Source: Candidatus Rokuibacteriota bacterium (GTDB taxonomy: Bacteria; Methylomirabilota; Methylomirabilia; Rokubacteriales; CSP1-6). From it: 64,000 bases of DNA. The stretch spans positions 1 through 64,000 of the forward strand of contig QHSL01000061.1 of NCBI GenBank assembly GCA_003220435.1, read 5' to 3'. Made by a program: the position numbers and the translations under genes. Below are positions 31,934 to 63,188 of this stretch, one piece after another (the stretch's first letter is position 1; the number at the start of each line of letters is the position of its first letter). A model generated the notes under the pieces. That model was given only the letters and a program-made list of their open reading frames with translations, was not told the origin of the DNA and ran no database searches.

Positions 31934-33127
31934 ATGCCACGACTCGACCGGCTGTCCCAGATCGCGCGCAACAATCTGCTCACGTTTCCGGCGCAAGTCA
32001 ACGAGACGGCGCCCTTCGTCCGCCTCCCGAAGCCGCTCGAGGGCTGCCGGCTGGCGATCGTCACCACCGCGGGCCTTCACGTCCGTGGCGATCGGCCCTT
32101 CGCACCCGGTGATCAGACGTATCGCGCGATCCCATCCGACACGCCGGCGGTCGACATCGTCCAGAGCCACACCAGCATCGGCTTCGATCGGGTGCCGATG
32201 CTGCGCGACGTCAACATCTCGTTCCCGATCGACCGGCTGCGCGAGCTGGTGGCGCGCGGCGAGGTCGGGGGACTGGGCTCCCGCAGCTACTCGTTCATGG
32301 GCGCGCAGCGCGAGGCCGCACGGATCGAAAGCGAGACCGGTCCCGAGGTCGCCCGGCTGCTCCGGGACGAGGGCGTGGACGTGGCGCTGATCACGCCGAC
32401 CTGACCGAACTGCACGCACACCGGTGGTGTGCTGGCGCGGACTCTGGAAGTGGAGGGGATCGCCACGACCTCGATCAGCCTCGTGCGCGAGCACACCGAG
32501 AAGGTGAAGCCGCCGCGCGCGCTCTGGGTGCCGTTCCCCTTCGGCCACGCCCTCGGGCGGCCGGACGACGCGGCGCTCCAGCATCGCGTCCTGCGCGCGG
32601 CCCTCGAGCTCCTGAGCGCGCCGGCCGGGCCCGTTCTGCGCGACTTCCCCGACGACGCCGAGGGGAGCGACCAGCCGCCGGCGCCCGTGCAGGCGTCGAC
32701 GATCGCGCCGGCCACGGACGTGCCCCGAGACGTCGCGATGGAGACGACCCAGATGCGCCGGTACCACGAGCGCTGGCTCGAGACAAGCGGCGGCCGCACC
32801 GCGTGCGGTCTCACCGGGATCCCGGTGACGCGGTTCCGCGGCGTAGTGCGCTTCCTCGAGGAGTTCGCGGACGGCGGGGATGCCGACATGACCGAGCGTT
32901 CGGCGGATGTGCCGCTGCCGAACTTCGTCCGCTACTGTGCCGACGACCTGAAGGCGCTCTACTACGAGGGCCACCTGGCGATGAAGTCGGCGGCGGGCGG
33001 CGAGGAGATCGCGCGGTGGTTCTGGGGCGAGACCGCGGCCGGCCAGCTGCTCCGGCGCGTCCGCAATCGGCTCGACGCCTCCGACGATCCGCGCTGGAAG
33101 GCCGCCGCCTTCGGCGTCGCCCGCTAG
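31934..33127 (+). CDS. Selenoprotein of the glycine/sarcosine/betaine reductase B (GrdB) family, UGA at codon 157
   Basis: One reading frame of 397 residues with a single in-frame UGA (32402-32404) read as selenocysteine. The sequence around it is VDVALITPT-U-PNCTHTGGVL, giving a UxxC redox motif at the position where GrdB-family proteins carry Sec or Cys. Before it: LSQIARNNLLTFPAQVNETA, YRAIPSDTPAVDIVQSHTSI and GFDRVPMLRDVNISFPIDRL, all typical of the family. After it: LEVEGIATTSISLVREHTEK and RALWVPFPFGHALGRPDD. A stem-loop with the features of a bacterial SECIS starts 11 nt after the UGA. The C-terminal 150 residues are not part of GrdB and look like a separate helical extension. Probably a thiol/selenol redox enzyme; no other Grd subunits are nearby. 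Confidence 0.85.
32416..32432 (+). promoter_or_regulatory. bSECIS stem-loop of the GrdB-like gene
   Basis: Perfect 7-bp stem GCACACC / GGTGTGC with apical loop GGT; beyond a 2x2 internal loop three more pairs form. The loop begins 18 nt after the UGA, and its first two bases are G. Bacterial SECIS elements need a G at the start of the apical loop, 16-37 nt after the UGA. Confidence 0.75.
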
Positions 33128-33187: not shown

Positions 33188-33901
33188 ATGACCATCATGG
33201 ACGTCAAAGCGCTCACCTTCGACGTGTTCGGGACAGTCGTCGACTGGCGCTCGAGCCTTATCCGCGAGGGCGAGGCCCTCGGAAAGGCGAAGGGGTTCGG
33301 GGTCGACTGGGCGAAGTTCGCCGACGCCTGGCGCGGCATGTACCAGCCAGCGATGGACGAGGTGCGGAGCGGCCGCCGGCCGTGGACGAAGCTCGACGAC
33401 CTCCATCGCGAGAGCCTCGAGAAGCTGCTCGTCCAGTTCGCGATCAAGGGGCTCTCGGACGGCGAGATCGACCACCTCAATCGGGCGTGGCATCGGCTCG
33501 ATCCCTGGCCCGACAGCGTGCCCGGCCTCACGCGACTCAAGAAGAAATACGTGCTGGCGACGCTCTCGAACGGCAACGTCGCGCTGATGGTGAACATGGC
33601 CAAGCACGGCGGGCTTCCGTGGGACGCGATCCTCGGGGCCGAGGTCGCGCGACACTACAAGCCCCAGCCCCAGTGCTATCTGACGACGGCCGCGCTGCTG
33701 GGCCTGCCGCCCGAGGAGTGCATGATGGTCGCCGCCCACAACGGCGACCTCGCCGCCGCCAGCTCGGTGGGTCTCCGCACGGCGTTCGTCCCGCGGCCGG
33801 CGGAGCACGGCGCGGGCCAGACCCGCGACGTGAAGCCGGCGCGCGAGTGGGACGTCGTGGCGAGCGACTTCGTCGACCTCGCCGCGCGGCTCGGTTGCTA
33901 G
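33188..33901 (+). CDS. Haloacid dehalogenase type II-like HAD hydrolase
   Basis: A 237-residue HAD-superfamily enzyme close to L-2-haloacid dehalogenases. Nucleophile motif LTFDVFGTVVDWRSSL; cap domain (about residues 20-95); motif II ATLSNGNVALM; motif III Lys in RHYKPQPQCYLTT; motif IV MMVAAHNGDLAAASSVGLRT. The second acid of the phosphatase DxD is V/F here, which fits dehalogenases that do not need Mg. Release of halide from short 2-halo acids is plausible but unproven. ATG at 33188 with AAGGAA upstream. Confidence 0.8.
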   Translation: MTIMDVKALTFDVFGTVVDWRSSLIREGEALGKAKGFGVDWAKFADAWRGMYQPAMDEVRSGRRPWTKLDDLHRESLEKLLVQFAIKGLSDGEIDHLNRAWHRLDPWPDSVPGLTRLKKKYVLATLSNGNVALMVNMAKHGGLPWDAILGAEVARHYKPQPQCYLTTAALLGLPPEECMMVAAHNGDLAAASSVGLRTAFVPRPAEHGAGQTRDVKPAREWDVVASDFVDLAARLGC

Positions 33902-34012: not shown

Positions 34013-36097
34013 ATGGCGAAGATCACCCAGTCCGTCGATCTCGAGACCCGCGGCCGTGTGGCCGTGCTCACCGTCGACAACCCGCCCGTCAACGCCCTGA
34101 GCCAGCACGTGCGCAAGGGACTGCATGACGGGCTCGGCCGTGCGGTGGCCGACGGCGGGGTACAGGCCGTCGTCATCGTCTGCGCAGGGCGCACGTTCAT
34201 CGCCGGCGCCGACATCACGGAATTCGGCAAGCCTCCGGTGGAGCCGGGGCTGCACGCGGTGCTCGACCTGATCGAGAGCTCGCCGAAGCCGGTCGTGTCG
34301 GTCATCCACGGCACCGCGCTCGGCGGCGGCCTCGAGGTCACGCTGGCTTGCCACTCTCGCGTCGGCGTCAAGGACGCGCGCTTCGGCCTGCCCGAGGTGA
34401 AGCTTGGTCTCCTGCCCGGCGCCGGCGGCACCCAGCGCCTGCCGCGTGTGGTCGGCGTCGAGAAGAGCCTACAGATGATGGTCAGCGGCGACTCGATCCG
34501 CGCCGACGAGGCGCTTCGGGTCGGGCTCATCGACGAGATCATCGCCGGGGACCTCGCCGCCGCCGGCGTCGCCTTCGCCGAGAAGGTCCTGAACGAGCGG
34601 CGCCCGCTCAGGAAGATTCGCGATTTCACCGACAAGATCGACGCGGCGCGGGGCAAGCCCGAGATCTTCGCGGAGTTCCGCAAGAGCGTCGCGCGCCAGA
34701 CGCGGGGCTTCCGGGCGCCCGAGAACATCGTGAAGGCGGTCGAGGCCGCGGTCAGCCTGCCGTTCGACCAGGGGATCAAGCGCGAGCGCGAGCTGTTCGT
34801 CGAGCTGCTCAACTCGCCGGAGTCGAAGGCGCAGCGCTACTTCTTCTTCGCGGAGCGCGAGGCGGCGAAGATCCCGGACGTGCCGGCCGACACGCCGCCG
34901 CGCGAGATCAAGACGGCCGCGGTGATCGGCGCCGGCACGATGGGCGGCGGCATCGCGATGAACTTCGCCAACGCCGGCATCCCGGTCACGGTGGTCGAGG
35001 TGGCTCAGGAGGCGCTCGACCGCGGCCTGGGGATCGTGCGCAAGAACTATGAAGCGACCGCGGCGCGCGGCCGGCTCACCGCGGCGGACGTCGAGAAGCG
35101 GATGGGCCTCATCATGCCCTCCGTCGATTTCACGGCGGTGGCGAACGCCGACATCGTCATCGAAGCGGTGTTCGAGGAGATGCCGATCAAGAAGGAAGTC
35201 TTCGCCAAGCTCGACGCGATCTGCAAGCCCGACGCGGTGCTGGCGACCAACACCTCGACGCTCGACGTCGACGAGATCGCCTCGGCCACCAAGCGGCCGG
35301 AGAGCGTGATCGGCACCCACTTCTTCAGCCCCGCCAACGTGATGCGACTGCTCGAGAACGTGCGCGGCCAGAAGTCGTCGAAGACCACGATCGCGACCGC
35401 GATGACCGTCGGGCGCCGCATCGGCAAGGTGCCGGTGCTCGTCGGCGTCTGCTACGGCTTCGTGGGCAATCGCATGCTCCACCAGCGCGGCCTGCAGGCC
35501 GAGAAGCTCATTCTGGAGGGCGCGGCGCCGCACCAGGTCGACAAGGTGCTCACCGACTTCGGCTTCCCGATGGGCCCGTTCGCGATGGGCGACCTGGCCG
35601 GCCTCGACGTGGGCTGGCGCATCCGGAAGGGCCGCGGGACCAAGGCGCCGGTGGCCGACCGCATCTGCGAGCTGGGGCGGTTCGGGCAGAAGACGGGCGC
35701 CGGCTATTTCAGGTATGAGAAGGGCGACCGCACGCCGATCCCCGACCCCGAGGTCGAGAAGATCATCGTGGACGTCGCGACGTCCATGGGCGTCACCCGT
35801 CGCTACATCTCCGACGAGGAGATCCTCCAGCGTCTCCTCTACCCGATGGTCAACGAGGGCGCCAAGATCCTCGACGAGAAGATCGCGATCCGTGCCAGCG
35901 ACATCGACGTGATCTGGGTCTACGGCTACGGCTGGCCGGTGTATCGTGGCGGCCCGATGTTCTGGGCGGACTCGATCGGTCTGCGGGCGCTGCGCGACCG
36001 GATGCTGGAGTTCAGGAAGCAGAGCGGCGACGACTTCTGGTCGCCGGCGCCGCTGCTCGACCGGCTCGCAGGCGAGGGCAAGGGCTTCACCGGCTGA
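34013..36097 (+). CDS. FadB-like bifunctional enoyl-CoA hydratase / 3-hydroxyacyl-CoA dehydrogenase
   Basis: A 694-residue beta-oxidation enzyme. Residues 1-190 are crotonase-fold (VLTVDNPPVNALSQHVRKGL, GRTFIAGADITEFGK oxyanion loop, LPEVKLGLLPGAGGTQRLPR with the catalytic Glu region). From residue 303 comes the NAD-binding dehydrogenase (AAVIGAGTMGGGIAMNFANA, IEAVFEEMPIKKEVFAKLD, GTHFFSPANVMRLLE with the catalytic His, and VGVCYGFVGNRML), followed by two C-terminal dimerisation domains. It would take trans-2-enoyl-CoA to 3-ketoacyl-CoA. No thiolase is adjacent. GGAGGG precedes the ATG. Confidence 0.9.
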   Translation: MAKITQSVDLETRGRVAVLTVDNPPVNALSQHVRKGLHDGLGRAVADGGVQAVVIVCAGRTFIAGADITEFGKPPVEPGLHAVLDLIESSPKPVVSVIHGTALGGGLEVTLACHSRVGVKDARFGLPEVKLGLLPGAGGTQRLPRVVGVEKSLQMMVSGDSIRADEALRVGLIDEIIAGDLAAAGVAFAEKVLNERRPLRKIRDFTDKIDAARGKPEIFAEFRKSVARQTRGFRAPENIVKAVEAAVSLPFDQGIKRERELFVELLNSPESKAQRYFFFAEREAAKIPDVPADTPPREIKTAAVIGAGTMGGGIAMNFANAGIPVTVVEVAQEALDRGLGIVRKNYEATAARGRLTAADVEKRMGLIMPSVDFTAVANADIVIEAVFEEMPIKKEVFAKLDAICKPDAVLATNTSTLDVDEIASATKRPESVIGTHFFSPANVMRLLENVRGQKSSKTTIATAMTVGRRIGKVPVLVGVCYGFVGNRMLHQRGLQAEKLILEGAAPHQVDKVLTDFGFPMGPFAMGDLAGLDVGWRIRKGRGTKAPVADRICELGRFGQKTGAGYFRYEKGDRTPIPDPEVEKIIVDVATSMGVTRRYISDEEILQRLLYPMVNEGAKILDEKIAIRASDIDVIWVYGYGWPVYRGGPMFWADSIGLRALRDRMLEFRKQSGDDFWSPAPLLDRLAGEGKGFTG

Positions 36098-40277: not shown

Positions 40278-40826
40278 ATGTCCATCAAGCGTGCGGTAGC
40301 TCGGACTCTCGTCCTGAGCGCCCTGGCGGTCGCGACCTTGGCCAGCGCCGCCGTCGCCCTCGAAGTCGGTCAGAAGGCGCCCGACTTCGCCCTGAACGGG
40401 ACCGACGGCAAGCCGGTCAAGCTCTCCGACCTTACGGCCAAGGGCCCGGTCGTCATCTACACGTTCATCGCGGCGTTCACCCCGACCTGAACCCGTGAGC
40501 TGAACGGCTTCGAGGCGGCGCTGCCGCAATTCGAGGCCGTGGGCGCCCAGGTCGTGGGTGTCAGCACAGATCATCACCTCGCACTGGCCGGATGGCAGAA
40601 GGATCAGAAGTCCAGGCAGCTCCTCCTCTCGGATTTCCGTCGGCAGATGCTTCCAGCGTATGGCGCGATGGTGACCGACGACAAAAGCCCGGTCTACCGC
40701 TACGCCAAGCGCGCGTACTTCATCATCGACAAGAGCGGTACGATTAAATTCGTGAAGGTCATGGACAGCGGGCTGGATCTACTCAACCCGGAGGAAGTGC
40801 TGGCCGCCGTCAAGGCGGCGATGTAG
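40278..40826 (+). CDS. Exported peroxiredoxin with selenocysteine (UGA at codon 71)
   Basis: One frame of 182 residues with a single in-frame UGA at 40488-40490. Signal peptide TLVLSALAVATLASAAVA; then VGQKAPDFALNGTDGKPVKL, VVIYTFIAAFTPT-U-TRELNG, where U sits exactly at the peroxidatic Cys of the AhpC/TSA family (xPTCT). The remainder follows the family: AQVVGVSTDHHLALAGWQKD, LLLSDFRRQMLPAYGAM and RAYFIIDKSGTIKFVKV. It should reduce peroxides in the periplasm. The ATG has GGAGGAGG upstream. A stem-loop at 40505 fits a bacterial SECIS. Reading the UGA as a stop would leave a useless 70-residue piece and a headless peroxiredoxin. Confidence 0.88.
40505..40539 (+). promoter_or_regulatory. bSECIS stem-loop of the exported peroxiredoxin gene
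   Basis: Lower stem of 10 pairs (CGGCTTCGAG with TTCGAGGCCG, two G-U pairs), an AA bulge on the 3' side, an upper 5-bp stem GCGGC / GCCGC and apical loop GCT. The loop starts 29 nt after the UGA with G in first place, inside the known spacing range of bacterial SECIS elements. Confidence 0.75.
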
Positions 40827-62344: not shown

Positions 62345-62665
62345 CTAGGAGCGGATCCGGCCGTTGACCAGCGCGCCCCACGTCGAGACGAGGAAGGGCA
62401 CGAGGTACGTGAGCGGCACTTTCCAGGCGAGGGCGCGCGGCCACTCGGCGCGCAGCACCACATCGCCCTGATTGATGGCCAGCAGGAGCGTGCCGAAGAT
62501 GGCGGCGATCATGAGCGAGCGCTTCAGCATGGGACGGTGGCGCAGGGCGCAGCGCTGGCACTTGACGATCGGGCCGTGGGGCGTCGGGAAGAGGAACGTG
62601 GTACCGCGCCCGCGCCCGCGCCCGCACCCGGCGCAGCGGCGATCGACGGTCGTGGCCGAGCTCAC
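62345..62665 (-). CDS. NrtS-like small membrane protein with N-terminal zinc ribbon
   Basis: A 106-residue protein. The end matches the NrtS type of two-span protein (LKRSLMIAAIFGTLLLAINQ, then KVPLTYLVPFLVSTWGALVN), a family linked with nitrate/nitrite transport. In front is a four-Cys module, RRCAGCGRGRGRG and IVKCQRCALRHRP, which should bind zinc and is an addition to the plain family. GTG at 62665. Divergent from the Sec-peroxiredoxin gene, 46 bp apart. Confidence 0.65.
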   Translation of the reverse strand: MSSATTVDRRCAGCGRGRGRGTTFLFPTPHGPIVKCQRCALRHRPMLKRSLMIAAIFGTLLLAINQGDVVLRAEWPRALAWKVPLTYLVPFLVSTWGALVNGRIRS

Positions 62666-62711
62666 GCGGTCGATTCTATGTCCCCTACCCAAACGTGGTA
62701 TAGGGAGATTC

Positions 62712-63188
62712 ATGATCGGGCTGCGCTTCGGCCAGGAGGCGCCGAGCTTCACGCTGCCGTCGACCGGAGGCGGTGCCGTGACGCTGTCCGACTTCAAGGG
62801 GAAGTCGGACGTGGTCCTCGTCTTTTACTGTTACGACTGGGGCAGCATCTGAACGCCCGAGCTGAGCGACCTGGGCCAGGTCGCTGACGAGATCGCCCGG
62901 CGGGGAGCAGTCCTCCTCGGCATCAGCGGCGACACCTCCTTCTGCCACGCCGCCTTCACCAAGGCGCGGAGCTTCCCGTTTCCGCTCCTGAGCGACGTCC
63001 ACCGCACGGCGATCGGCGCCTACGGCGTGCACGACGCCGAGCGCAACGTCGCGTACCGCTCGACCTTCGTCGTGGACCGCGCCGGCGTGCTGCGCTGGGG
63101 CCAGGCCGGGGACCGCCAGATGGTCCGCGACGGACGCGAAATCCTTCGCGTTCTCGACGTCATCGAGGGACTCCGTCGAAAGGGCTGA
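62712..63188 (+). CDS. Cytosolic peroxiredoxin (AhpC/Bcp type) with selenocysteine, UGA at codon 47
   Basis: One frame of 158 residues with a single in-frame UGA (62850-62852). MIGLRFGQEAPSFTLPSTGG and VTLSDFKGKSDVVLVFYCYD lead into WGSI-U-TPELSDLGQ, with U at the peroxidatic Cys position of the DWxxxCTxEL motif. After it: AVLLGISGDTSFCHAAFTKA, SFPFPLLSDVHRTAIGAYGV and STFVVDRAGVLRWGQ, all normal for the family; Cys in SFCHAAF could resolve. No signal peptide, so cytosolic. A perfect hairpin follows at 62865. Its partner reductase is not encoded here. The MoxR gene starts 20 bp downstream. Confidence 0.9.
62865..62885 (+). promoter_or_regulatory. bSECIS stem-loop of the cytosolic peroxiredoxin gene
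   Basis: Perfect 9-bp stem AGCGACCTG / CAGGTCGCT with apical loop GGC. It starts 12 nt after the UGA and the loop begins 21 nt after it, with two G first. This fits the bacterial SECIS rules. Confidence 0.8.

Follow-up and report, generated by a model that had tools for sequence, protein, structure and literature searches.

PrdB-like selenoproteins of Rokubacteria, Acidimicrobiia and Chloroflexota that carry a conserved C-terminal helical domain

The gene and its selenocysteine codon

The window, that is, the whole stretch of 64,000 nucleotides analyzed here, comes from a soil bacterium of the Rokubacteria and contains on its forward strand a gene (31934..33127) that encodes a protein of 397 amino acids when its single in-frame TGA is translated as selenocysteine (Sec, U). 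The protein consists of a PrdB-like N-terminal domain (residues 25-227; 32006..32614), a variable linker (about residues 240-263; 32651..32722) and a C-terminal domain of six helices (about residues 265-397; 32726..33124). Its start, MPRLDRL, is common to the Rokubacteria orthologues. The TGA (32402..32404) is codon 157, lies in the motif PT-U-PNC and forms with Cys160 a UxxC motif that aligns with the Sec/Cys of PrdB. Without Sec decoding, the gene is split into two open reading frames of 211 and 232 amino acids, so that standard annotation may truncate or miss it. Sixty base pairs downstream and on the same strand lies a haloacid dehalogenase (HAD) type II gene (33188..33901; TIGR01428, 172.2 bits against a cut-off of 125.4), followed, also on the forward strand, by a gene for a FadB/FadJ-like enoyl-CoA hydratase/3-hydroxyacyl-CoA dehydrogenase (34013..36097; Pfam and NCBIfam). 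Two further selenoprotein frames are found on the forward strand. A peroxiredoxin gene about 7 kb downstream of the first (40278-40826; 106 bits to Pfam AhpC-TSA if the TGA is read through) has an apparent signal peptide and carries TGA at the peroxidatic position (TPT-U-TREL), and a third, likely selenoprotein frame, also peroxiredoxin-like (62472-63188, start approximate), carries TGA at 62850-62852 (DWGSI-U-TPEL). The many selenoprotein copies found agree with a 2026 review (PMC13188914), which reports 63 predicted selenoprotein genes in a Methylomirabilota MAG.

Codon 157 almost certainly specifies Sec, since the TGA is conserved, dN/dS is low past it, third codon positions are frozen and the stem of a bSECIS hairpin covaries. 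All ten full-length Rokubacteria genes, including that of the window, have TGA at this codon, and the tables for all three groups of relatives give one internal TGA in 83 of 85 full-length genes. The site residue, read individually in 46 aligned relatives that possess the C-terminal domain (hereafter, extended proteins), is U in 44 and Ala in two, with no Cys form among them. Values of dN/dS are 0.25 upstream of the TGA, 0.17 for residues 158-239 and 0.26 for residues 267-397, and the highest value of the gene (0.38) falls in the linker (residues 240-266). A real stop at codon 157 was ruled out by the conserved frame, the low dN/dS downstream and the covarying bSECIS. The genome also encodes tRNA-Sec (anticodon UCA) and SelB. 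The original prediction had described a UxxC selenoprotein and had considered that homologues might have a true stop here followed by unrelated sequence; the conserved TGA and the coincidence of both Sec and the second Cys with PrdB bear out the former, and the 83 genes that keep TGA speak against the latter.

The predicted bSECIS, a 7-bp hairpin with a GGT loop 18 nt past the UGA, is present as proposed (GCACACC-GGT-GGTGTGC; 32416..32432, forward strand) and was found to covary. Among 36 distinct sequences from the three groups, 90% of the stem cells are paired, and 34 two-sided compensatory cells were counted vs 6.4 ± 3.2 in shuffles. When the stem was slid along the alignment, pairing dropped to 26-62% and the covariation signal was gone. 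Third positions are near-invariant in stem codons 160-163 and 165-167, whereas that of loop codon 164 varies among all four bases. Covariation and third positions were relied upon because simpler approaches discriminate weakly: only about one orthologue in two had the hairpin as its minimum when the 48 nt past the UGA were folded as single sequences, and scanning for simple hairpins gave a background of 24% in these GC-rich genes.

The two domains of the protein

The N-terminal domain was best matched by TIGR04483 (PrdB, one subunit of the two-subunit D-proline reductase; 149.5 bits, E = 1e-43), at half of the equivalog cut-off of 300 bits. Aligned with PrdB of Enterococcus, whose gene adjoins prdA and prdC, and with that of Peptoclostridium, the window protein has its Sec, its second Cys and a number of Asp, Arg, Gly and Gln residues at corresponding positions. 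The window protein therefore shares with PrdB the N-terminal region of about 200 residues, the UxxC site and conserved Asp, Arg and Gln positions. It differs in having PNC where PrdB has GTC after Sec, in an extra C-terminal domain of 130 residues, in the lack of an adjacent proline-reductase cluster and in that PrdA was undetected in most carriers. The GrdB/GrdF/GrdH selenoprotein B models (PF07355, TIGR01917, TIGR01918, NF040794 and NF040795) match the Sec-site half (residues 82-229), whereas the N-terminal half of GrdB is unmatched and GrdE is not adjacent. GrdB-type NCBIfam models gave 34-46 bits, far under their cut-offs (TIGR01917 and TIGR01918, 33.8 and 36.7 bits vs 602 and 65), and Pfam GRDB (PF07355) gave 26 bits, covering only the last 74 of its 347 positions (274-347). 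The proposed assignment to the GrdB family thus holds at the level of the superfamily, where the Sec-site half matches, but the profile match of the N-terminal part to GrdB is weak and partial and the best family is PrdB (149.5 vs 33.8-36.7 bits). Judged by these profiles, the protein would be better labelled 'PrdB-like, GrdB superfamily' than 'GrdB family'. A profile of the N-terminal domain had no real match in the PDB, the glutaredoxin hits being insignificant (E 0.2 or worse).

About 150 unrecognized residues had been noticed at the C-terminus, and this region (about residues 240-397) is indeed present and without a match in Pfam, NCBIfam or the PDB. Its six-helix part was modeled by AlphaFold2 with a mean pLDDT of 84, belongs to no Pfam or NCBIfam family and is unmatched in the PDB, whether searched by sequence, profile or fold; a Foldseek search against the PDB gave no E below 1. 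CopM was considered as a family for this domain (E 0.0019 for the whole sequence), but the best stretch reached only 0.15 and the match consisted of weak stretches only, so it was treated as chance. At least 96% of the 46 sequences share E270, G292, D338, E345, W362, T367 and G370, and the domain is under purifying selection, as its dN/dS indicates. Such conservation appears to exceed what a plain linker would need. The full-length AlphaFold2 model was poor (pLDDT 53), and a contact between the C-terminal domain and Sec157 cannot be read from it. What looks new here is this conserved domain on a PrdB-like selenoprotein; it represents an unnamed family, and its invariant polar residues lend themselves to direct tests.

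Distribution, neighbors and partner subunits

Full-length relatives with the C-terminal domain were found in Rokubacteria (10 genes), in the class to which the Acidimicrobiia genome L055 belongs (59 genes in 56 of 395 genomes) and in Chloroflexota (16 genes in 11 of 400 genomes, one of which holds four). The window protein is no orphan: its clade comprises 46 genes in the tree and 85 by count, drawn from three groups and all with the extension. The tree of the N-terminal domain (quick search, no bootstrap) united all 46 extended proteins (SH-aLRT 95) and placed the short paralogues, PrdB and the Cys relatives outside them, which is most simply explained by a single gain of the C-terminal domain. 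This domain was found only fused to the extended PrdB-like clade of the three groups or in deletion scars. A search for it within the phylum returned 15 genomes, comprising ten intact genes, four remnants and one insignificant match. Apparent free-standing copies (L057/L068, L069, L070 and L071) proved to be deletion scars in which the 3' end is kept (L068, 8421-8732; L069, 1-339; L070, 8384-8555; L071, 6359-6415), with out-of-frame remains of the 5' end still recognizable in two of them, L068 and L069. Since four Rokubacteria genomes retain pieces only, the extended gene is dispensable and has been lost repeatedly. An additional, frameshifted copy of the extended gene is present at L056. One Chloroflexota locus (L168, G877:C27) has three extended genes in tandem, with a fourth on another contig, and the second contig of Chloroflexota genome G061 contains a piece (L096, 303-479) similar to the final 59 residues of the C-terminal domain (44% identity).

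Stand-alone PrdB-like selenoproteins, a group in which we include the marine-metagenome 'PrdB' (PMC1088965, PMC2398784), short Rokubacteria and Chloroflexota paralogues and the Cys relatives of Roseomonas and Haematobacter, resemble the window protein in having a PrdB-like domain with UxxC or CxxC and, in those examined, no adjacent PrdA. However, the short forms examined (about 234-308 residues) lack the C-terminal domain and fall outside the extended clade. The Roseomonas and Haematobacter relatives are annotated as 'glycine/sarcosine/betaine reductase selenoprotein B family protein'. The Sargasso Sea and Global Ocean surveys (PMC1088965, PMC2398784) ranked PrdB selenoproteins with their most abundant families, so there is precedent for PrdB-like selenoproteins in organisms other than classical Stickland fermenters. 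The selenoprotein fusions listed in the ocean survey are Prx, Prx-like and UGSC proteins, PrdB not being listed (PMC2398784), and no description of extended GrdB-like or PrdB-like proteins was found in the literature searched, whose coverage was incomplete and did not include supplementary files. At two loci (L097 and L098), a short PrdB-like selenoprotein clusters with genes for an SDR, an acyl-CoA synthetase, a family III CoA-transferase and a zinc alcohol dehydrogenase.

A conserved operon was ruled out for the extended gene: neighbors differ between loci, and the check for conserved neighbors proposed with the original prediction yielded none outside close relatives. Besides HAD type II, the neighbors include subunits of the xanthine-dehydrogenase type, Rieske oxygenases, acyl-CoA and CoA-transferase genes, MFS transporters and amino-acid ABC systems, each type recurring singly or a few times across loci.

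Stickland partner genes had been reported as missing nearby, in agreement with our finding that neither GrdA, GrdC, GrdD, PrdA or PrdC nor a thioredoxin was recognized among the translated frames of the window from about 18.4 to 45 kb. PrdA (PF09338), the pyruvoyl subunit that accompanies PrdB, is not encoded with the extended gene, none being found among its neighbors. The genome has one PF09338 (GrdE/PrdA) subunit, which lies on another contig beside a full-length GrdB of its own, and a short PrdB-like selenoprotein on a third contig. PF04723 (GrdA) had no match in this genome, and the control genomes likewise gave none. Among 40 other carrier genomes, 34 gave no PF09338 match; some of these genomes are incomplete MAGs, and a diverged or unrelated partner would have escaped the search. 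The 34 include all 29 sampled carriers of the Acidimicrobiia class apart from the L055 genome. The search itself works, as six other carriers gave positive matches. In the genome of the window, the GrdE-like/GrdB-like pair (L073, G000:C17) adjoins branched-chain amino-acid ABC transporter genes.

Possible chemistry of the extended proteins

The window protein is a selenoprotein of a distinct PrdB-like subfamily, apparently of single origin, and we assign a probability of about 0.5 to C-X cleavage by one chain as its mechanism class. Its chemistry, as we infer it, is most likely that of a one-chain Sec/Cys reductase that would cleave a C-N, C-S or C-halogen bond in an activated substrate without a pyruvoyl subunit. 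Sec157 would attack a carbon-heteroatom bond activated, for example, by a neighboring carbonyl, in a substrate that may be a small acid or acyl compound; Cys160 would resolve the selenide to an Se-S bond, which an external dithiol reductant would recycle, and the C-terminal domain may stand in for the missing partner subunit by binding the substrate or aiding assembly. In PrdA/GrdE chemistry, a pyruvoyl group activates the amine of proline or glycine. The substrate is probably no free amino acid, because without this group that amine could not be activated in the known way. The neighboring functions counted in support of the one-chain reductase are those related to acyl-CoA, xanthine-dehydrogenase-type enzymes, Rieske proteins and dehalogenases. 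With somewhat less confidence, we tentatively regard the extended proteins as a PrdB offshoot that acquired a new catalytic or substrate-binding helical domain and dispenses with the pyruvoyl subunit. In Rokubacteria, Acidimicrobiia and Chloroflexota, they would catalyze an uncharacterized bond cleavage that depends on Sec.

The adjacent HAD type II gene raises the alternative of a reductive dehalogenase acting on 2-halo acids in partnership with this enzyme, its selenolate attacking the carbon-halogen bond. HAD type II genes also occur near the extended gene in two orthologous Rokubacteria loci, and in Chloroflexota (L171) two of them flank it, one lying on its strand and about 60 bp upstream. 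This is the commonest neighbor family in the scanned set (4 of 88). A precedent is the fluoroacetate reductase FarB/FarE of Synergistota, in which a GrdB-type Sec with a GrdE-like partner is proposed to attack C-F (PMC10838667). It resembles our preferred reading in the proposed Sec attack on a carbon-heteroatom bond beyond amino-acid fermentation, but it is a GrdB-type two-subunit system with a transporter and a radical-SAM gene rather than a PrdB-like single chain (PMC10838667). Nevertheless, the association involves just two independent lineages in about 40 neighborhoods, in a tally that was made after the fact and with one orthologue added by hand, and a dehalogenase is missing from most loci of extended genes. 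HAD type II genes are, moreover, common in soil bacteria. We therefore take the adjacency as a functional lead, not as proof, and hold a dehalogenase to be improbable.

The UxxC motif and the two peroxiredoxin-like selenoproteins elsewhere in the window would suit a thiol-disulfide or peroxide-type redox protein, which trades electrons with proteins or small disulfides and cleaves no substrate bond. This seems unlikely, as the homology is to PrdB and not to a thioredoxin fold, with glutaredoxin matches at the insignificant level given above, and as the residues shared with PrdB besides UxxC (aspartates, R195 and Q216) suggest a substrate site. An ordinary PrdB, paired with a distant or unrecognized PrdA-like subunit encoded elsewhere and using its C-terminal domain as a docking or oligomerization module, could be reconciled with the PF09338 subunits of this genome and six other carriers. 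We nonetheless find such a pairing quite doubtful, since the subunit of this genome adjoins its own GrdB on another contig, most of the other carriers yielded no PF09338 and the TIGR04483 score is far under the equivalog cut-off.

The extended proteins form a selenoprotein subfamily with a domain architecture of its own that spans three bacterial phyla. Some members keep Sec and others have lost it, but Cys was never seen, making the extended clade a good case for asking which chemistry truly needs selenium. The two relatives with Ala in place of Sec, because of which some extended members may not be redox enzymes, are L138 and L139 of the Acidimicrobiia class. Their codon is GCG or GCT (VAPMC) and their C-terminal domain is intact, possibly with a non-redox or altered function; four of the seven stem pairs are broken, whereas the Sec-containing relatives compared alongside retain six of seven.
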